Positions 34,216 through 43,521 of a DNA stretch of 46,249 bases are shown piece after piece. Both the position numbers and the translations under genes were made by a program. Origin of the DNA: Methanolobus sp. (GTDB lineage: Archaea; Halobacteriota; Methanosarcinia; Methanosarcinales; Methanosarcinaceae); assembly GCA_021767785.1 (NCBI GenBank), contig JAASSR010000007.1, forward strand, positions 1 through 46,249, in the 5' to 3' direction. Below the pieces are notes generated by a model. That model made no database searches. It saw only the letters and a program-made list of their open reading frames with translations, and was not told the DNA's origin. Position 1 is the first letter of the stretch, and each line of letters starts with the position of its first letter.

Positions 34216-36330
34216 TTAAAGGAACTTGTTCCTTAATTTATCATAGAAAGCCTGTTCGTTTCCATCTGTTTTCTTTGAAAGTCTTTCCACTATCAACTCA
34301 GGGGTGCTTTTGGCAACATAATTATAACGCGGACTTCTCTCAACTATTAGATTGAGATCCGAATCCAGACCACTGGCCTCTATCCCGTCAACCCTGATTG
34401 GACAATTTATATTTTCCATTATCTGCTCGGAAAGATGAGAAACAAATACAGACATTGTTCTTTCATTCTCCATCAGAACTTCAAGAATACCCGCCATTAT
34501 CTTTGCAGAAGCTCCAGGTTCTGTAATCGATTCCAGTTCATCGGCAAGAACGAACTTTGATGAGCCGTCAGATATGACCGAAAACTCAGTAAGGGTTGTT
34601 TCAAATGCACCTGCATCCAGGGTGCCCTTTGATTTGGCAAAATAATACATGGATTCAGTAAATGATAGTTCCATATACTCAGCAGGAACCGGAAATCCCA
34701 TATGGGCAAGTATTATACTCTGTGCAAGAAATTCCAGAAGAGATGTCTTGCCACCGGAATTCACACCACTTAGAAGCACAACACGACTTGTATCATTTTC
34801 CGGTCCGAGACCATTCTCACCAACCGAATAATCTATGGGTATCACATCACCGTGTTTCGATAGAAGGAAAAGGTTCCTTCCTTCCCTGAAACCAATGCCT
34901 GCCTTTTCAATGATCTCAGGCATGACAAGATCATATTCCCTGGCAAAAGAACCTATTGCAAATCCTACATCAAAATCGAGTACTTCCCGAACCATTTCCC
35001 TGACCGGTTCTCTGTAAGAAGACAATAGCCGGGATACTTCACGTTTATGGTTGAATTTCCTCTTTTCTGCCTTTTTGCTGAGATGTTGCTTCAAAGATTT
35101 GATAAGTTCCACATCAGCTTCTACCGGGTGCATGATATCGTCGGGAAAGAGGGATTCTACTATTATTCTTTCCTTTTTCTCCAGATGAAGGTCATTGCAT
35201 ATCCTGTCAGTACCTTCCCTGATAATTGAATAATAGCTCTTATGTAGTTTTTTTCCAAGCATCTCTTTCAGTTCGATGGAACCATTCATGACCTTCAGCA
35301 TATCCTGTCCGCTGAGGGTCATCTGACATTTTTCAAGGCAGGAATCTATTTTTTTATTCATGGAATGAACGATATTAGTAATCAACGGCTCAAGATTATT
35401 CATCGCATCTGTAATCCTGTCTATCTCTTCATCAGTCCCATGAACTATGTCCCCTTTATCATCTATCAAAGCCAGAGTGGATGCAAGCAGTTCAATGGAA
35501 TCACCATCCATTTTGTCAAAGAAACGAATACCTTTTGAACGCAAGGATCTTACAACATTGATCGAAGCTTCAAGAGACCTTAAGTTCCGGGAAAAAAGGA
35601 ATATTTCCTTTTCAGGTACAACTTTATAAGCATCAATCACCTGAATATCGGAAATGAACTCCGGATCTATATCTTCCGGAAGATCAAATGCCAGCAGGTC
35701 ATCCCCTACAGCAATTACATGAGAAAAGCCTCTTGACAGATCAATGAATTCTGAAACCGAATTCACTAAATGGACATCAATGAGTCCTGAAAATCGTTTT
35801 TTTGCACATTCATAGCTATTCTGATCAGATGTGATCACAACCCTGTCACGAATTTTAGGACATTGGCATCTGAAGTCTGGTTGACTAACCATGGACAGAA
35901 GATCATCTATTGTTCCATCTTCTCCAATTATTTTGGCAATACCCATATAATAAGATACAGATTCACGCACCTGCATAATCTTTTCAGCTTTAGTGGAAGG
36001 GTATGGGAAGAATACATGCATTTTATGCCTGGAATAACGGGTATGAGCAAATTCCTTTATAAGATCAAGCAGTTTTTCGTAAACATCCATTGCTTCTGTT
36101 GTTTTTAGGAAATCGGTTACTCTAACCCCTTCTAATCTTGAAGCCACATCCTGTATAAGAGATATGGCATAACGCTGCCCTATACCTTCTACTTCTGAAA
36201 TACTGGCAACATCGCCTGTCAATATTGCATCCAATGCCTGGGTTTCACTACCGAAATGCTCCACGAAGCGTTTTGACATCTTGTCCCCTATACGGGGAAT
36301 ATCCTGTAAAGTTCTGACATCAGTTAACAT
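34216..36330 (-). CDS. MutS-related ATPase with N-terminal HhH motifs (archaeal MutS2/MutS5-like)
   Basis: About 704 residues. An N-terminal helix-hairpin-helix pair (LQDIPRIGDKMSKRFVEHFG and SISEVEGIGQRYAISLIQDV) is followed by a long middle region with coiled coil and the MutS ATPase domain: Walker A VVLLSGVNSGGKTSLLEFLA, Walker B SSKFVLADELESITEPG, and the MSVFVSHL segment. There is no MutS mismatch-binding domain I. Members are thought to act on branched DNA or recombination rather than mismatch repair. I chose ATG 36330, preceded by AGGGAT, just past the DUF4130 stop; the longer frame from 36387 would overlap that gene by 50 nt. Third gene of a tight operon. Confidence 0.88.
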   Translation of the reverse strand: MLTDVRTLQDIPRIGDKMSKRFVEHFGSETQALDAILTGDVASISEVEGIGQRYAISLIQDVASRLEGVRVTDFLKTTEAMDVYEKLLDLIKEFAHTRYSRHKMHVFFPYPSTKAEKIMQVRESVSYYMGIAKIIGEDGTIDDLLSMVSQPDFRCQCPKIRDRVVITSDQNSYECAKKRFSGLIDVHLVNSVSEFIDLSRGFSHVIAVGDDLLAFDLPEDIDPEFISDIQVIDAYKVVPEKEIFLFSRNLRSLEASINVVRSLRSKGIRFFDKMDGDSIELLASTLALIDDKGDIVHGTDEEIDRITDAMNNLEPLITNIVHSMNKKIDSCLEKCQMTLSGQDMLKVMNGSIELKEMLGKKLHKSYYSIIREGTDRICNDLHLEKKERIIVESLFPDDIMHPVEADVELIKSLKQHLSKKAEKRKFNHKREVSRLLSSYREPVREMVREVLDFDVGFAIGSFAREYDLVMPEIIEKAGIGFREGRNLFLLSKHGDVIPIDYSVGENGLGPENDTSRVVLLSGVNSGGKTSLLEFLAQSIILAHMGFPVPAEYMELSFTESMYYFAKSKGTLDAGAFETTLTEFSVISDGSSKFVLADELESITEPGASAKIMAGILEVLMENERTMSVFVSHLSEQIMENINCPIRVDGIEASGLDSDLNLIVERSPRYNYVAKSTPELIVERLSKKTDGNEQAFYDKLRNKFL

Positions 36331-36337
36331 TCTATCC

Positions 36338-37174
36338 CTATCCGGATGTGAAGTTGTCAAGAGTGTAGTTTGAAATTCCTCTTTCAACCTTATATCTATC
36401 TCTTTCCGCCATCTTGCTCATGGATGCAGAAAGCTTTGGTTGTAGTTGTTTTGCATGAGTTTTGTTTCTTCTCTTTTGAATTATCTGGGAATCATAATAC
36501 ATATCCCACATGTCATCGACTTCATCGCAGGCTTCTGAGAACTCCAGACTGCCTGCCAGTGAAGAAGGGACCTTAGTGAAATGTTCAAGTCCTACATGAT
36601 TTCCGTTGCCAATCCAGGCAATATCTCCTTCGATAACAGAAACCGGCACATCAGGGTTCTTTCGTGCAAGCCAGCGACAGAACATATCCCCTATCTGATG
36701 AGGGGATTCAACTTTCACAGAAAGCACACCATTTGCAAGATAAGGTCGTGCAAACATGCACATACGATGATATGAGCGACTCACGTCACGCATACAATTA
36801 TAGTATTTCTTTCCGATATTGCTTTTTCCGGAATACAGTAATTCAACATTTCCCTGGCATGAAACAAGAAAACGAACCAATTCTATGGCTCTCGAACTTC
36901 GATGCCTCAGTACCATAGCTATATATCCTTCCACATCAGGATCACGCTGGAACATCCGTGACCTTTTATTTCCAAAAAGATTACTTACGATTTTTGTGGT
37001 ATCAGTGCTACCTCTGAAACCCAGTGTTTTTACATCTTCAATTCCGGTAAACTCCATCTTTTGTTTCAATTCAGCCCTTCCTTTTGCGCTAAGAAGATCA
37101 CAATCCGGATTTTCTATAAGTTCCTTACACGCCAGCAGAACACCATCTACGTTTTCCCTGAATGCCACTATCAT
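36338..37174 (-). CDS. DUF4130 (TIGR03915-type) putative DNA metabolism protein
   Basis: 278 residues. Recognised from FLVSCQGNVELLYSGKSNIG, VSRSYHRMCMFARPYLANGV, YYNCMRD, and the later HQIGDMFCRWLARKNPDVPV and GDIAWIG. The domain is known as the constant genomic partner of a radical SAM protein (TIGR03916), with uracil-DNA glycosylase linked in some bacteria; the biochemical role is not established. Start overlaps the radical SAM stop by 4 nt (ATGA). The C terminus is basic. Confidence 0.85.
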   Translation of the reverse strand: MIVAFRENVDGVLLACKELIENPDCDLLSAKGRAELKQKMEFTGIEDVKTLGFRGSTDTTKIVSNLFGNKRSRMFQRDPDVEGYIAMVLRHRSSRAIELVRFLVSCQGNVELLYSGKSNIGKKYYNCMRDVSRSYHRMCMFARPYLANGVLSVKVESPHQIGDMFCRWLARKNPDVPVSVIEGDIAWIGNGNHVGLEHFTKVPSSLAGSLEFSEACDEVDDMWDMYYDSQIIQKRRNKTHAKQLQPKLSASMSKMAERDRYKVERGISNYTLDNFTSG

Positions 37175-38316
37175 GCTCCCACACCTGCAAATGAGAAAAG
37201 ATTGGTCTGTCTTTTTCCGTTTATTTCAACAAATGGTCTTGCACGACTAAGTACTACACCCATGCGGGAAAGTTCCTTTTCGGAATTTATAGGCCGGGAA
37301 CTGACGATCCTGTTAGCACCCACAGGCCCTATTCCCGGAACTCTCAGAAGATCTTCCCTGGTGGCAGAATTTACATCCACGGGGAACAGCTCAGGATTAC
37401 ATGAAGCGAGGAGCATCTTAGGATCATTATCAGGAAGGAATCCATTATCATCGAGAACATTATCCAGATCATTTGCTGTCATTCCATAGTCCTTCAACAG
37501 ATATGAGGTCTGATATAACCTGATCTCTCTCCATAAAGGAGAAGGATCGTTGTTCTCGAGGGGTGTGAACGGAACCGGATCAAAACTCATGAAATAAGGC
37601 CTCCTGAGTTCGTACCTGTCCATGAATTTCTCCACGGTACCAATAATTTCCCTGTCAGATTCCTGTACGGCACCTACCACGAACTGAGTATCATTGGCGC
37701 CGATGATGCGTCCCCTCTTACCAGCTTCACGGCGTTTTCTGTTGATGAGATCACGTGTCCATTTCAAACGCTGTAGAACATCACTATTATAATGGAAATT
37801 CGGACATATTTCCGAATAATTGATCGAGCTTGTGGTTTCTGCGTTGACACCGAACTTGTTTGCACAATCGGAGATCTCTTCCAGAAGATATTTCGGAGTT
37901 CCGGGCATTACACGTATGTGAATATAACCCGCGAAGCCCTGAGTTCTCAGAAGCCTGGCAACTTCAAGCTGTTGTTCGGCTGTTTTTTCGGCATCTCCTA
38001 TGACACCGGAAGAGAGAAACAGACCCTCTACGGCATTTCTGCGATAGAAGGACCAGGTAATTTTAACAATCTCCTCCGGACTCAATGTTGCCTTCACAGA
38101 ATCACGACCGCACCTGTTGGGACAATAAGTACACTCCCCGCAGCACGCATTGGTCATCAATGTCTTATATAGCTGTATACAACGCCCATCAGGTCCGAAA
38201 GCATGACACACAGCACTCTGGTTACAACTGTCGTACTTGGTACCTTCAGATAATACTCTCATCCTTTCCATAAGCGTCATATGGTGCTCATTAACAGGAT
38301 TTCTGCGGGTCATCAT
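37171..38316 (-). CDS. radical SAM protein with C-terminal HhH (putative DNA modification/repair)
   Basis: 381 residues. The cluster motif is CCGECTYC (C58, C62, C65: CX3CX2C) and an extra conserved cysteine follows (PNRC). Further motifs are EGLFLSSGVIGDAEKT, GYIHIRVMPGTPKYLLEEI and FGVNAETTSSINY. Residues about 325-355 form a helix-hairpin-helix DNA-binding unit (TREDLLRVPGIGPVGANRI). This is the TIGR03916 type, called putative DNA modification/repair radical SAM protein. It leads an operon with DUF4130 and a MutS-like ATPase. The DNA-linked role is inferred from HhH and neighbours. The reaction is unknown. Confidence 0.88.
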   Translation of the reverse strand: MMTRRNPVNEHHMTLMERMRVLSEGTKYDSCNQSAVCHAFGPDGRCIQLYKTLMTNACCGECTYCPNRCGRDSVKATLSPEEIVKITWSFYRRNAVEGLFLSSGVIGDAEKTAEQQLEVARLLRTQGFAGYIHIRVMPGTPKYLLEEISDCANKFGVNAETTSSINYSEICPNFHYNSDVLQRLKWTRDLINRKRREAGKRGRIIGANDTQFVVGAVQESDREIIGTVEKFMDRYELRRPYFMSFDPVPFTPLENNDPSPLWREIRLYQTSYLLKDYGMTANDLDNVLDDNGFLPDNDPKMLLASCNPELFPVDVNSATREDLLRVPGIGPVGANRIVSSRPINSEKELSRMGVVLSRARPFVEINGKRQTNLFSFAGVGA

Positions 38317-38523: not shown

Positions 38524-39078
38524 TTATTCTCCTTTCAGTTTAACTTTCACTTTCAGAATGCTTATGGGTTCAAGCTTTTTCCACATTACAGTGGAATCAT
38601 GATCAAATGTATATTCATTTACGTTCTTGTCGGAGAATACACCATCTACCTCATAGACAAAAAAACCTTCTTCACCGTTAGTAGAAACAATATTATCCTG
38701 GCCATGCACATCTTTCACTTCAACAACTGCAGCCTTCTTGAGAGCTTCAAGGAGAGTGGCCCCTTTTTCAACCTCAACGGTTCTGGAGGGTGCAAATATA
38801 TCGAGCGCATGGAAAATGTTCTTGTTGTTCAGTTCCAGAACATGGGTCTTACCATAGACCTTACGAAGTATCAGATCCGCGTCTTCCAGTATGTTCGCAT
38901 GCTTTGCAGCAACAGGAACCGATATACCTAATTCTCTGGCAAGTTCGGATATATGCATTTCACCCTCAGTCAGCTTTTGAAGCATCCTGAGTCTGGTCTC
39001 ACTTCCAAGAGCACTGAACAGTTTCAAACGATCTGTATGCTCTTGATTCTCGGAGTCTTTGTTATCGAGAGTGCTCAT
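38524..39078 (-). CDS. ArsR-family regulator with C-terminal DUF4430/transcobalamin-like domain
   Basis: 184 residues. Residues 17-90 are a winged HTH (RLKLFSALGSETRLRMLQKL, ISVPVAAKHANILEDADLIL). Residues about 100-184 do not belong to ArsR proteins. Their pattern (VEVEKGATLLEALKKA, GFFVYEVDGVFSDKNVNEY, then D-STVMWKKL) follows the beta-grasp DUF4430 domain, which is the C-terminal domain of transcobalamin-like corrinoid-binding proteins. A TATA box (CAATATATAG, 39101-39110) about 27 bp before the ATG indicates a leaderless mRNA, and an 11-bp direct repeat lies just above it. The same-strand genes upstream are a TIM-barrel gene and cbiZ. Corrinoid sensing is inference. Confidence 0.82.
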   Translation of the reverse strand: MSTLDNKDSENQEHTDRLKLFSALGSETRLRMLQKLTEGEMHISELARELGISVPVAAKHANILEDADLILRKVYGKTHVLELNNKNIFHALDIFAPSRTVEVEKGATLLEALKKAAVVEVKDVHGQDNIVSTNGEEGFFVYEVDGVFSDKNVNEYTFDHDSTVMWKKLEPISILKVKVKLKGE

Positions 39079-39120
39079 AATTAGAAGTAATTAGCGTGTT
39101 CAATATATAGTTTTCTACAC

Positions 39121-39143
39121 AAACAGTTCATTAAACAGTTCAT
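39121..39143. promoter_or_regulatory. 11-bp direct repeat upstream of the arsR-type gene
   Basis: AAACAGTTCAT occurs at 39121-39131 and again at 39133-39143, a 12-bp period. It begins about 11 bp above the TATA box of the arsR-type gene. Placement fits a dimer-binding activator or repressor site. Confidence 0.5.
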
Positions 39144-39216
39144 GAATGCAAAAAATAAATAATTATTAATACAAAATAAATGAATAAATAATATACTTCA
39201 ATTAGAAAATATCAGG

Positions 39217-40197
39217 TTACCCGCGAAGTGCACGTTTCTGGATGTTCAGCTTTTCATCAAGAATAAGCAGATCAGTTGAAACAAATTCATGTGTAAGAAA
39301 ATCAGGAGATACCATATCAACTAGTCGGGAACAGCTCTCACTTGTGAAAGGCATATGCTGGTCCATCTGTTCAAGTATCTCCATCACAGACATAAGTCTG
39401 TCTTGGAAAGGCCTGTCGTCAAATCCTTCAGGAGCTTCCATTCCCAATGAACTGCGCATGAACTCACCTGAAAGACTGCAATGGAAATGCATCCCTTCAA
39501 TGCGCCTGAGAATATCCTCAGAATGGTTGGAAAGCAGATCAAGCACCACATTTACAGAGCATTCTTCATCATCACATTTCATAGTGGCATTCATAAGATG
39601 GCCTGTATCAAGAACAAAAGCCCAGTTATCAAAATCAAGAAGGGATCCAAAATACTCAACATTCATAGGATCAAGAAAAGTAAGGCCGGGCCACCAGAGA
39701 TTCTCAAAAAAGAGCCTGACCGGTGGTTCACCTCCTGGATATACAGAAACTGCTTCATTAAGGAACTCTGAGGTAGTTTCAAGGACATCATAATCAGTAC
39801 AGTCAAAACAGCGAGTAAAGACCTGTTCCATTTCAGCATATGATACATGAAAAACCGCATATGAAGCATCGAGAACATGAGCATTTTCAAGTGACCTTCT
39901 GAAATTATCGATCACTTCCCCGCGGCTGCCACCACCAAAAACGTAGATCTTTTCGAACTCCTCCATATCCTGATCAAAAGCAGAAGGATCAACCCATGCC
40001 CTGTGCCGTCCCATCCAGTAAGGTAAATGCACACCCTCTATAATATCAACAGGGACTTCGGGAAGAGGAGATGAATCCACAAAAAGTTCCAGTCCGTCCA
40101 GATCATGCCTTACAAGAAAATTCCTGATCCTGCCCCAATCGGATCCGAACATATTCATATCATTTTCATAAAGAGAGAAATTCATCAGCTCTTTCAT
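39217..40197 (-). CDS. TIM-barrel protein of the xylose isomerase-like/AP endonuclease 2 superfamily
   Basis: About 326 residues. Barrel strands with metal-site residues in family positions: LDGLELFVDS, EGVHLPYWMG, AVFHVSYAEM, RLFFENLWWPG, AFVLDTGHLMN, GMHFHCSLSG and a final FTSESCSRLV. Such proteins isomerise, epimerise or cleave sugars and sugar phosphates, or cut DNA at abasic sites; the substrate here is unknown. I chose ATG 40197, which has AAAGGAG 7-8 nt upstream, over ATG 40203. It begins 26 nt after cbiZ on the same strand, so a role near corrinoid or ribose-phosphate metabolism is possible. Confidence 0.78.
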   Translation of the reverse strand: MKELMNFSLYENDMNMFGSDWGRIRNFLVRHDLDGLELFVDSSPLPEVPVDIIEGVHLPYWMGRHRAWVDPSAFDQDMEEFEKIYVFGGGSRGEVIDNFRRSLENAHVLDASYAVFHVSYAEMEQVFTRCFDCTDYDVLETTSEFLNEAVSVYPGGEPPVRLFFENLWWPGLTFLDPMNVEYFGSLLDFDNWAFVLDTGHLMNATMKCDDEECSVNVVLDLLSNHSEDILRRIEGMHFHCSLSGEFMRSSLGMEAPEGFDDRPFQDRLMSVMEILEQMDQHMPFTSESCSRLVDMVSPDFLTHEFVSTDLLILDEKLNIQKRALRG

Positions 40198-40222
40198 AAC
40201 CATTCTCCTTTCCGGGAGTCAT

Positions 40223-41410
40223 TCATGAATTGCAAATTCCTTCAAGGTTGCAGTTCTTTGCCATCCATGCAGTAACACGAACCCAGTTCTCGATAATGGA
40301 ATCTTTTTCGTCTGTCAGTTCTTCAAAAGGTATAAAAGCCTCCATACCAAGCATTTCCGGCAAGCCCTTCATAACGGACAAAGCTACCTTCCTTCCTGCA
40401 ATCTCCGGGATCAGACCCCATGATATCTCATCCACCATGTGTAAAACCGAAGCTGTTGCCCCTACCAGAGCAGGATTCTTTGACAGTTCCCTCAATACTT
40501 TGAAAAAAGCCGCCTTACGGTTATCACCGGCCATATGTGATGCTTCTTTCCAGTAATCCTTTTCATCTATTCCGAAACGTTCCAATCTCACAAGCATATC
40601 TCTCTGGGAAAGTACTGTCAGATCCGATTGAAACTCAAGAGCTTTATGAGTACATTCAAGGACAGTTTTACCAATAAGCTCGCCAAGTTTGGAATGCTGT
40701 CCTGCATCTGTAAGCAAAAGAGGGCTTGTGCCATCCGCAACCACAGCTACCATATCCGTGCCTGAACCAGTAGCTATTCCTGTGGAATATCGACTTGGTG
40801 CCATCAGTTGCTGTAAAGCGGCAGTCTTTGCTTCTGTTGCGGTAATAACAGTCCTTGTCATAGTATATTGGGGAAGATTGGCACCTATTATCAATATGAG
40901 ATTAATGGTACCCTGGATGAACTGATGAGAGCCGTTCTCCTGATAGTATGAAGCGGGATCACCTACTCGCCCTCCATTGACTTCGATCCCGGCAGTCATA
41001 ATAGCCGTTACCTCAACACCACGGAAAGATTTCGTTACAATTGAAACATTATCCATGTTTGCAGCTGTCAGCAATCCCGTAGAAGCTTTCGGATCTGCCC
41101 CCAGTCTTTTTGCAATGATCTCAAGATAAGCAGGAATGCTGCCTCCATCAAGATCTTTGGCAGCATGTTTGTTCTTTGGAACATGATAGTTGAAAATTGT
41201 CCTTATGCCCTCCCTGTAACCGCCATTCAACCAGGAAGTTGTAAGTGTCCTTCTGCCTTCAGGAAGGGTTACAAGGATAGAATCTGGATGTCTGTAAATC
41301 TTTTCCTTGCCTGTGGTCTCAAAAAGCAGCACAATTTTCTCATTGGTATTACTATCTGAGATTTCAGGTTCATTTTCCTGATCTTTTACTTTCCCGGATC
41401 TGCTTGCCAT
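40223..41410 (-). CDS. cbiZ: adenosylcobinamide amidohydrolase with C-terminal extension
   Basis: About 395 residues. CbiZ removes the aminopropanol tail from adenosylcobinamide (and pseudocobalamin in some species) to give adenosylcobyric acid, allowing corrinoid salvage, which matters for methyl-corrinoid methanogenesis. The CbiZ domain spans about 40-270: TTSWLNGGYREGIRTIFNYH, IMTAGIEVNGGRVGD, GTINLILIIGANLP, TATEAKTAALQQLM and GIATGSGTDMVAVVAD. Residues about 280-395 form an extra, mostly helical region (VLHMVDEISWGLIPEIAGRK) that I cannot assign. I chose ATG 41410, with GGAG 6 nt upstream, over ATG 41422 and 41443. Confidence 0.9.
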   Translation of the reverse strand: MASRSGKVKDQENEPEISDSNTNEKIVLLFETTGKEKIYRHPDSILVTLPEGRRTLTTSWLNGGYREGIRTIFNYHVPKNKHAAKDLDGGSIPAYLEIIAKRLGADPKASTGLLTAANMDNVSIVTKSFRGVEVTAIMTAGIEVNGGRVGDPASYYQENGSHQFIQGTINLILIIGANLPQYTMTRTVITATEAKTAALQQLMAPSRYSTGIATGSGTDMVAVVADGTSPLLLTDAGQHSKLGELIGKTVLECTHKALEFQSDLTVLSQRDMLVRLERFGIDEKDYWKEASHMAGDNRKAAFFKVLRELSKNPALVGATASVLHMVDEISWGLIPEIAGRKVALSVMKGLPEMLGMEAFIPFEELTDEKDSIIENWVRVTAWMAKNCNLEGICNS

Positions 41411-41550
41411 GAAGAACTCCATATAAATGATCGAGCCTGACACATTTTTATTTAAATGTGAAATATAAGGATCGCCAATGAATATAACCCGGTGTGCGAT
41501 AAATATCTTTTGAATTTGCTTTTAAGTCATTTTGAGTTGGTTTTTTGTAA

Positions 41551-41579: not shown

Positions 41580-43031
41580 TCAGACCTTTAGTTCTTCATT
41601 CTCAGGAAATTTATGAGAAGAGTCCATCTTTGTCTTTGATTTTAATAATTTTAACACATAAAGTCTGGCCCATCCGAAAATGAACAGGGAACCCATGATA
41701 TTTCCTACAACTATTCCCCACCAGACACCGGTAAGTCCCATATCAAGATAGAATGCCAGTACGAACGCGAACAATGGTACGAAAATCAAAGCACGAAGAA
41801 TTGAAGCAAAAAGTGCATTCATGCCTTTACCAACACCCTGGAACAGAGAGGATGAGAGTAGTCCGAGTGATACTGTGGGATAGAACAAACAGATTATCCG
41901 AAGGAATACTGTCAGGTCATTAGTTATGTGGGAAGCACTCTCAGATAGTGTGAATACATAAGCGATCTGGGGAGCAAGAGCAAAGGTCATAATTGCGATG
42001 ATGGTCTCTACAACAAGACCGGCTTTCATCGAATAGATATGGGTGAAAGAGACCTTGTCATATGAACCTTCACCATATGAGAATCCTGATAGTGTTACAA
42101 CGGCTGTGGCAATCCCAATCAAAGGAGCAATGGCAATTGTCACAACACGCCATCCCACAGTATAAACAGCCACACCATCGGTATTATTAACGGCAATTAT
42201 AATGACATTTATCACAAGCATCATAAGTGCCATGGAAGTCTGTTGTACCGATGCCGGAATCCCTACCCTGAAAATATCCCGGAGTATGTCCTTTTCAAAA
42301 TTGAAATCCTTGAAATCAAAGGAAAGATAGGTATCTTTTTTAAAGAAAAGCCAGCCGGACATGATAACAGCGGTTATTCCCATTGACACCACCGTAGCCC
42401 AGGCAGCACCTGCAACACCCAGGTTTAACGGATAAATGAAGATAGGATCCAGAACTATATTCAGCACAGAACCGAATACCATAGCATACATAGCCCTTTT
42501 AGTGTCACCTTCACTACGCAGAATAGCATTTGCAACGTTTGTAAAGAACAGGAGAATACTGCCACCAAAGATAACACGTCCATAAGAAGTGGCCATTGCA
42601 GTTGTTTTGCCTGCACCTATCATAATGAATATCTGCTCTGCAAAGGTGAACAATGTCAACGTAAAAGCAGCAGACAACAGTATCATCAGTATCATTGAGT
42701 GAACAGCAACGTTGTCAGCACCTTTTTTGTCGCTTGAACCAAGTCTTCGGGATATAGCCGAACCGGCACCTATACCCAAACCGTTCGAGAGGGCAATAAT
42801 TACGAAGAAGAACGGAAATACAAAACCAACTGCAGCAAGCGCATCAGCTCCCAGACCTGAGACCCAGAAAGTATCCACCAGATTGTACAGGGTCTGAATA
42901 GACATCCCGAGCATCATTGGCAATGCCAGCTTTATCATTGCTTTTTTAGGATCACCGAGGAGAGTTTTCATGCCCGAAGTTGTCCGGGAACATGGCGCTG
43001 CTTCTTCACTGTCAGATTCAGTATCAATCAT
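41580..43031 (-). CDS. MATE-family multidrug efflux transporter
   Basis: 483 residues with about twelve membrane helices in two six-helix halves, each opened by related motifs (PMMLGMSIQTLYNLVDTFWV and VGIPASVQQTSMALMMLVIN). It exports cationic compounds using a sodium or proton gradient. The polar 30-residue N terminus and charged C-terminal tail are cytoplasmic. Its start overlaps the end of the MarR gene by 8 nt, so pump and regulator are co-translated, the classic drug-inducible arrangement. Confidence 0.93.
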   Translation of the reverse strand: MIDTESDSEEAAPCSRTTSGMKTLLGDPKKAMIKLALPMMLGMSIQTLYNLVDTFWVSGLGADALAAVGFVFPFFFVIIALSNGLGIGAGSAISRRLGSSDKKGADNVAVHSMILMILLSAAFTLTLFTFAEQIFIMIGAGKTTAMATSYGRVIFGGSILLFFTNVANAILRSEGDTKRAMYAMVFGSVLNIVLDPIFIYPLNLGVAGAAWATVVSMGITAVIMSGWLFFKKDTYLSFDFKDFNFEKDILRDIFRVGIPASVQQTSMALMMLVINVIIIAVNNTDGVAVYTVGWRVVTIAIAPLIGIATAVVTLSGFSYGEGSYDKVSFTHIYSMKAGLVVETIIAIMTFALAPQIAYVFTLSESASHITNDLTVFLRIICLFYPTVSLGLLSSSLFQGVGKGMNALFASILRALIFVPLFAFVLAFYLDMGLTGVWWGIVVGNIMGSLFIFGWARLYVLKLLKSKTKMDSSHKFPENEELKV

Positions 43032-43521
43032 TTGAAGCTTTCCTCATTTCGTTTTCATGTGCGATGTTACGGGCAGCCCTTTCCACCATGGATAAGAACA
43101 TCGTTTTTTCTTCATCACTAAAACCACGAAGGATCACATCGTTCAGTTGCTTACTGATCTTTATGAAAAGAACTTTCATCTCACGTCCCCTGTCAGTAAG
43201 ATGAACACAATAAGCTCTTTTGTCAGCAGGATCCTTTTTGCGTATGACATAACCCATCTCTTCAAGCTTGTTAAGCGAGCGGGTAATCGTTGCCCTGTCA
43301 TACCTCAGTGCGTTTGCAAGTGTTTCCTGGCTGACACCATCATGATAAAGCAACCTCATGAAAAAAGGAAACTGCCCACTTCCGATACCATAAGGCTCCA
43401 GCTCTTTTGACAAATAGATGTTTATTGATCTGAAAATGTGCGAAATATCCCTTCCTATGGATTCATGCTTGCTGATGTAACATGTATTTTCGGATTCTGT
43501 GGAATTTGTCCTGTATGTCAT
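43024..43521 (-). CDS. MarR-family transcriptional regulator
   Basis: 165 residues. Dimerisation helices flank a winged HTH: QFPFFMRLLYHDGVSQETLA, RYDRATITRSLNKLEEMGYV and the wing RKKDPADKRAYCVHLTDRG, which is diagnostic of MarR. Likely represses its own operon with the MATE pump and releases DNA on binding a ligand. A compact array of GCAAC/GTTGC half-sites at 43569-43588, next to the TATA box (TTTATATATTAG on the minus strand, about 43588-43599), is the probable operator. Confidence 0.93.
   Translation of the reverse strand: MTYRTNSTESENTCYISKHESIGRDISHIFRSINIYLSKELEPYGIGSGQFPFFMRLLYHDGVSQETLANALRYDRATITRSLNKLEEMGYVIRKKDPADKRAYCVHLTDRGREMKVLFIKISKQLNDVILRGFSDEEKTMFLSMVERAARNIAHENEMRKASND

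Follow-up and report, generated by a model that had tools for sequence, protein, structure and literature searches.

An ArsR-type protein with a transcobalamin-like domain beside cbiZ

We analysed a 46,249-nucleotide stretch of DNA from Methanolobus sp. (contig JAASSR010000007.1, positions 1 to 46,249; hereafter the window), centring on a gene for a 184-residue protein that joins an ArsR-type DNA-binding domain to a domain of the DUF4430/SLBB type, which is related to a domain of transcobalamin, the vitamin B12 carrier of animals. Transcription on the minus strand runs from cbiZ (adenosylcobinamide amidohydrolase) through a TIM-barrel gene to this ArsR-type regulator and then to a radical SAM, UDG-linked and MutS-like block. 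A preliminary description of this DNA had read the protein as an ArsR-DUF4430 fusion with cbiZ two genes upstream on the same strand and a TIM-barrel gene between them, and each of these observations was confirmed.

The regulator (38524..39078, minus strand) was delimited by its open reading frame, Pfam matches and a family-wide alignment (A1). Its ArsR-type winged helix (residues 19-94; 38797..39024, minus strand) scored 36.6 bits (E 4e-9) to PF01022 (HTH_5), well above the curated cut-off of 22; all 52 members of alignment A1 matched this profile at E <= 0.01, and the best matches of the protein in both PDB and Foldseek searches were ArsR structures. Residues S53, P55, V56 and H60 of the recognition helix were near-constant across the family alignment and H42, H60 and H79 nearly invariant, with neither a conserved cysteine nor a canonical ArsR/SmtB metal motif found in that alignment and no cysteine at all in the window protein. 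Close matches came from Methanolobus (93% identity over the full protein), the next genus being Methanomethylovorans.

The C-terminal domain (residues 106-167; 38578..38763, minus strand) covered positions 1-69 of the 72 in the DUF4430 profile PF14478, scoring below the cut-off of 23.8 bits both for the whole window protein (19.2 bits, E 1.7e-3) and for its C-terminal half alone (21.7 bits, E 2.9e-4). We accepted the assignment because orthologues pass the cut-off and because this stretch is kept across the order: PF14478 was matched by 29 of the 52 aligned members at E <= 0.01 (best 9e-9), and its cut-off was passed in nine ArsR-fused places (G079, E 3.3e-9; G091, E 4.2e-9; G088, G034, G087, G022, G075, G090 and G086). 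Judged from these sequence comparisons, the match in the window regulator is not due to chance. The fused domain stays full-length across the order in alignment A1, with G106, G135, G138, K167 and L169 invariant (L169 just past the match) and Y142, E143, G146 and W166 nearly so. An AlphaFold2 model of moderate confidence (mean predicted local distance difference test score, pLDDT, 77.7) placed a helix at residues 109-116 and strands at 119-124, 127-133, 139-144 and 164-169, an order that fits a beta-grasp in which a beta-hairpin follows the helix as an insertion. DUF4430 proteins unfused to ArsR also occurred in several Methanolobus genomes (L138, L140, L143, L148) and are possible corrinoid-scavenging proteins.

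Distribution and gene neighbourhoods of the regulator

Full-length members of the regulator family were found only in Methanosarcinales, where they occupied four families (f1, f2, f4 and f5); family f3 and the other families of the class yielded ArsR-level scores only (E about 1e-10 or weaker). The genome of the window carries one full-length copy, while some relatives carry two or three. We collected 108 neighbourhoods from 19 genera and annotated their recurring neighbours by Pfam and NCBIfam. A strict cobalt/corrinoid marker lay within 5.5 kb of the regulator in 73 of these loci and in 13 of the 19 genera, counts for which the markers were picked after the neighbours had been seen, though limited to cobalt/corrinoid families, and in which loci of one genus are not independent of each other.

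The genes involved differed from lineage to lineage. CbiZ and the TIM-barrel gene adjoined the regulator in Methanolobus, Methanomethylovorans and genus g5, the last of which also had a CbiM/CbiQ/CbiO set downstream of it; BtuFCD-CbiZ lay directly downstream of the regulator in g21 and preceded it in g12. In g2, g4, g7 and g11 the regulator was divergent from DUF2162-ExbB-DUF2149, usually accompanied by CobN, whereas in g19 it was followed directly by CbiMNQO or was divergent from CbtA. Genus g6 linked it to CbiD-CbiE, and a second Methanolobus paralogue was close to NicO and CbiMNQO-CbiE-CbiD. Overall, corrinoid genes (CbiZ, BtuFCD, CbiR-like) were at least as frequent near the regulator as metal-transport genes. 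In the CobN-linked genera the regulator was flanked by the CobN cluster on one side and by fibrillarin/Nop genes on the other (L054, L055, L062, L086).

The context class switched 19 times on a tree of 58 regulator proteins, and the neighbourhood is therefore not one inherited cluster. In complete Methanolobus genomes, CbiZ, CbiM/CbiD and CobN occupy roughly four to six separate places, from which we estimate that the chance of a random position lying within 5.5 kb of one of them is only a few per cent, rarer markers being left out of the estimate. Near more distant ArsR loci without the domain, a strict marker was found in none of 11, a control from which nine close ArsR relatives had been left out, these being often near Btu-like or CobN genes and two of them near strict markers.

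Promoters, operators and riboswitches

The TIM-barrel gene and the regulator are separated by 138 bp here (median 131 bp over 30 loci). Within this gap, a TATA-like element (39103..39110, minus strand) precedes the ATG of the regulator by about 30 nt, and a TATA-like sequence begins 30-33 nt upstream of the ATG in 49 of 104 orthologues; the regulator therefore probably has its own promoter, with a leaderless transcript likely. Adjoining this TATA box is an 11-bp direct repeat with a 12-bp period (39121..39143, minus strand; AAACAGTTCAT on the plus strand, copies at 39121-39131 and 39133-39143), which was recognisable just upstream of the TATA sequence in most aligned Methanolobus relatives and was not found outside Methanolobus or at other corrinoid promoters. 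We regard the repeat as a candidate autoregulatory site.

Upstream of cbiZ, a promoter element (41469..41511, minus strand) was recognised by conservation as a diverged copy of a strongly conserved 45-nt Methanolobus block (AAAGRTATTTAA...ATATATTCATTAATGTCCTGTG). The block spans the TATA-like region and occurred as a single copy in 10 of 27 Methanolobus genomes, with none in the reversed control; being single-copy per genome, it was rejected as a multi-site operator. Promoters from 56 genus/context groups were scanned for dyads, and none stood out from shuffled sequence; a guessed shared half-site, TTMATGNNCYGTKNR, was about as frequent as its reversed control. The cobalamin riboswitch RF00174 was not found in the window or in 60 relatives and was present in 8 of 14 control genomes.

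The cbiZ-TIM pair and the flanking genes

The cbiZ gene (40223..41410, minus strand) encodes an adenosylcobinamide amidohydrolase with a C-terminal extension and matched PF01955 with 196 bits against a cut-off of 27 (E 7e-58). Its start is the ATG at 41410, conserved in 12 Methanolobus species, rather than the GTG listed at 41443. Only 19 bp separate it from the TIM-barrel gene (median 11 bp over 28 loci), and the two therefore probably form one operon. Two genes upstream of cbiZ (41580-43521), one for a MATE efflux protein and one for a MarR regulator that resembles BilQ but scores below the cut-off, are conserved in Methanolobus and Methanomethylovorans.

The TIM-barrel gene (39217..40203, minus strand) encodes an AP-endonuclease-2-type protein, distantly CbiR-like, that was assigned from Pfam, fold and alignment A2. 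It scored 29.2 bits against the AP_endonuc_2 cut-off of 31.1, its AlphaFold2 model had a pLDDT of 95 with endonuclease IV as the nearest PDB fold, and alignment A2 showed H119, D199, H202, H239 and H241 to be invariant and E167 nearly so. The CbiR model NF041277 gave it 16.9 bits (E 0.0035) and gave 48.5 bits (E 7.5e-13) to shorter relatives (239-241 residues) that in g3, g5, g6 and g8 are encoded at the corresponding place, immediately ahead of the regulator. All of these proteins fall below the equivalog cut-off of 105, and we therefore call them CbiR-like and not CbiR. A role as a repair-linked endonuclease IV was considered and rejected, CbiR being a better-scoring match for the relatives than endonuclease IV. 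CbiR of Akkermansia muciniphila hydrolyses cobamides to begin their remodelling (PMC7733943), and the TIM-barrel protein shares with it the AP-endonuclease-2 superfamily and conserved His, Asp and Glu residues, differing in its distance from the CbiR model. Because its gene lies next to that of a cobinamide amidohydrolase, a salvage or remodelling pair of the TIM-barrel protein and CbiZ is plausible, in line with the earlier suggestion that the two may share a pathway. In Methanolobus, a third AP_endonuc_2 TIM barrel (278 residues) is encoded close to the second paralogue of the regulator and to NicO (L031:4353-5189, L033, L039, L040).

On the other side of the regulator lies a conserved block (34216..38316, minus strand) that is probably a separate transcription unit. 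It comprises a rSAM_link_UDG-type (TIGR03916-like) radical SAM protein (37171-38316), a UDG-linked DUF4130 protein (36338-37174) and a MutS-V protein with HhH (34216-36387), all on the minus strand, and its function is possibly DNA repair. In two g6 loci (L063, 7032 region; L068, 7027-12127), a regulator paralogue has the mismatch repair genes MutS and MutL behind it, and the corrinoid synthesis genes CbiD and CbiE come next.

Proposed function and alternatives

From the domains of the protein, their conservation, the changing neighbours, the probable separate promoter and the relatives in which no cobalamin riboswitch was found, we lean, with modest confidence, towards reading the regulator as a corrinoid-status-sensing ArsR-DUF4430 one-component transcription factor of Methanosarcinales that controls local cobalt/corrinoid supply genes. 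As a dimer, the protein would contact promoter DNA through its ArsR winged helix. The transcobalamin-like domain joined to it would be the sensor of corrinoid status, most likely with a corrinoid as its ligand, and this binding may in turn alter the affinity of the dimer for DNA. Its targets would be local genes for cobalt uptake or for corrinoid uptake, salvage or synthesis, which in the window would mean the cbiZ-TIM operon and probably the regulator's own gene, and their likely control would be repression when corrinoid is plentiful and derepression when it is scarce. The link to corrinoid genes that the preliminary description had drawn from this one locus was upheld by the survey, in which separate lineages place differing gene sets beside the regulator. 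The interpretation as a whole is partly supported.

Several results weigh against a corrinoid-sensing role. No strict marker was found in 35 of the 108 loci (24 had none at all and 11 the TIM gene only), among them nine Methanolobus paralogue loci, several of which adjoin pilus-type genes. In five Methanolobus genomes the second copy of cbiZ has upstream of it, on the same strand, a gene for a short ArsR protein (98-117 residues) that belongs to the same helix-turn-helix (HTH) family, lacks DUF4430 and carries a conserved C-terminal tail resembling ELYILDNLFLI (L219:1805-3569, L220:2087-4217, L221:1782-3606, L222:2168-3955 and L223:1629-3425), and the domain is therefore not needed for a link to cbiZ. 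No histidine or cysteine is conserved within the DUF4430-like domain in the family alignment. The direct repeat of the regulator and the 45-nt cbiZ block share no motif tested, and no family-wide operator was found. As to the fold, the assignment to PF14478 in the preliminary description fits the AlphaFold2 element order, while a Foldseek search of the PDB with the whole model had only ArsR folds among the matches listed, so that the beta-grasp was not independently confirmed, and a profile-profile test of the domain against ten local DUF4430 domains did not reach significance, the small size and shallowness of that set being the probable cause. A beta-grasp fold is thus supported by sequence and weakly by structure.

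The strongest rival reading, which we nonetheless consider unlikely, is that the protein is an ArsR/SmtB-type cobalt (or cobalt/nickel) sensor that controls the same genes in response to Co2+, with the C-terminal domain merely stabilising or coupling the dimer. It would account for the pure metal transporters among the neighbours (CbiMNQO, CbtA and NicO), for the near-invariance of H42, H60 and H79 and for the DUF4430-free ArsR proteins ahead of the second cbiZ copies. It fits less well with a family alignment in which neither a conserved cysteine nor the canonical alpha-3 Cys motif was found, with corrinoid genes being no rarer nearby than metal-transport genes, and with a fused domain retained at full length, invariant residues included, throughout the order. 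It is improbable, in our view, that the domain instead binds another soluble ligand of one-carbon or cell-surface metabolism and that only some paralogues serve corrinoid genes. Other ligands for HTH-fused versions were allowed in an earlier study (PMC1796856), and several paralogues adjoin pilus-type or other unrelated genes; the larger group free of corrinoid neighbours is, however, a Methanolobus-specific clade, and most other lineages are cobalt/corrinoid-linked.

The remaining alternative would assign the regulator to the downstream radical SAM-UDG-MutS-like block and make cbiZ an incidental neighbour. These DNA-repair-like genes are its most constant neighbours in family f1, where the block lies directly downstream in 45 loci at a median gap of 105 bp; MutS-MutL follows the regulator in L063 and L068 as well, and the nearest fold of the TIM barrel is that of endonuclease IV. 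In the other families and the CobN-linked genera, however, the block is missing beside the gene and varied cobalt/corrinoid genes recur there, CbiD-CbiE come after MutS-MutL in L063 and L068, and the regulator has its probable own promoter and stands apart from the block by that same gap. On balance this is quite improbable.

Relation to known regulators and implications

The core of the corrinoid-sensing proposal is not new, because ArsR-SLBB fusions of Methanosarcina (example gi:72395507) and a proposal for their ligand were published in 2007 by Burroughs, Balaji, Iyer and Aravind, who, in the passages that treat them, judged them to be probable one-component factors with a response to B12, to precursors of it or to some other ligand, and who softened the B12 claim after review, HTH-fused versions possibly binding other ligands (PMC1796856). 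The architecture, the archaeal order and the kind of function proposed there are the same as ours; the difference is the order-wide gene context over 19 genera documented here, none having been found for the HTH-fused form in those passages, and this context is added support for a prediction already known. We found no paper naming a corrinoid regulator of methylotrophic methanogens. The ArsR regulator MM2441 of M. mazei is linked to methyltransferase genes (PMC3510493); its membership of the family could not be established.

Methylotrophic methanogens depend heavily on corrinoids. In bacteria, DNA-binding domains joined to domains taken from corrinoid biology are found in CoaR and CarH, which differ from the present protein in being MerR-type regulators with other effector domains (precorrin-isomerase-like and methylcobalamin-binding). 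The neighbour set of the regulator (corrinoid synthesis, uptake and salvage, and cobalt transport) resembles the regulon of bacterial cobalamin riboswitches, which govern B12 synthesis, B12 transport and cobalt transport (PMC3766115); the regulator here is a protein and not an RNA. The earlier idea of a protein alternative to these riboswitches gains from their not being found in the 60 relatives and falls short in that no common operator was found. More tentatively, it is possible that Methanosarcinales at large control cobalt uptake and corrinoid uptake, salvage and synthesis by a dedicated ArsR-transcobalamin-type protein sensor; if true, the B12 riboswitch would have in it a counterpart made of protein, one that uses the ligand-binding domain lineage of the animal B12 carriers. 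Through the survey, the 2007 prediction becomes a concrete, testable regulon in which the genes to examine are named lineage by lineage, and the genetically tractable Methanosarcina should have an orthologue next to its CobN cluster. The CbiR-like TIM-barrel family beside cbiZ and the regulator is in turn a candidate archaeal cobamide-remodelling enzyme.

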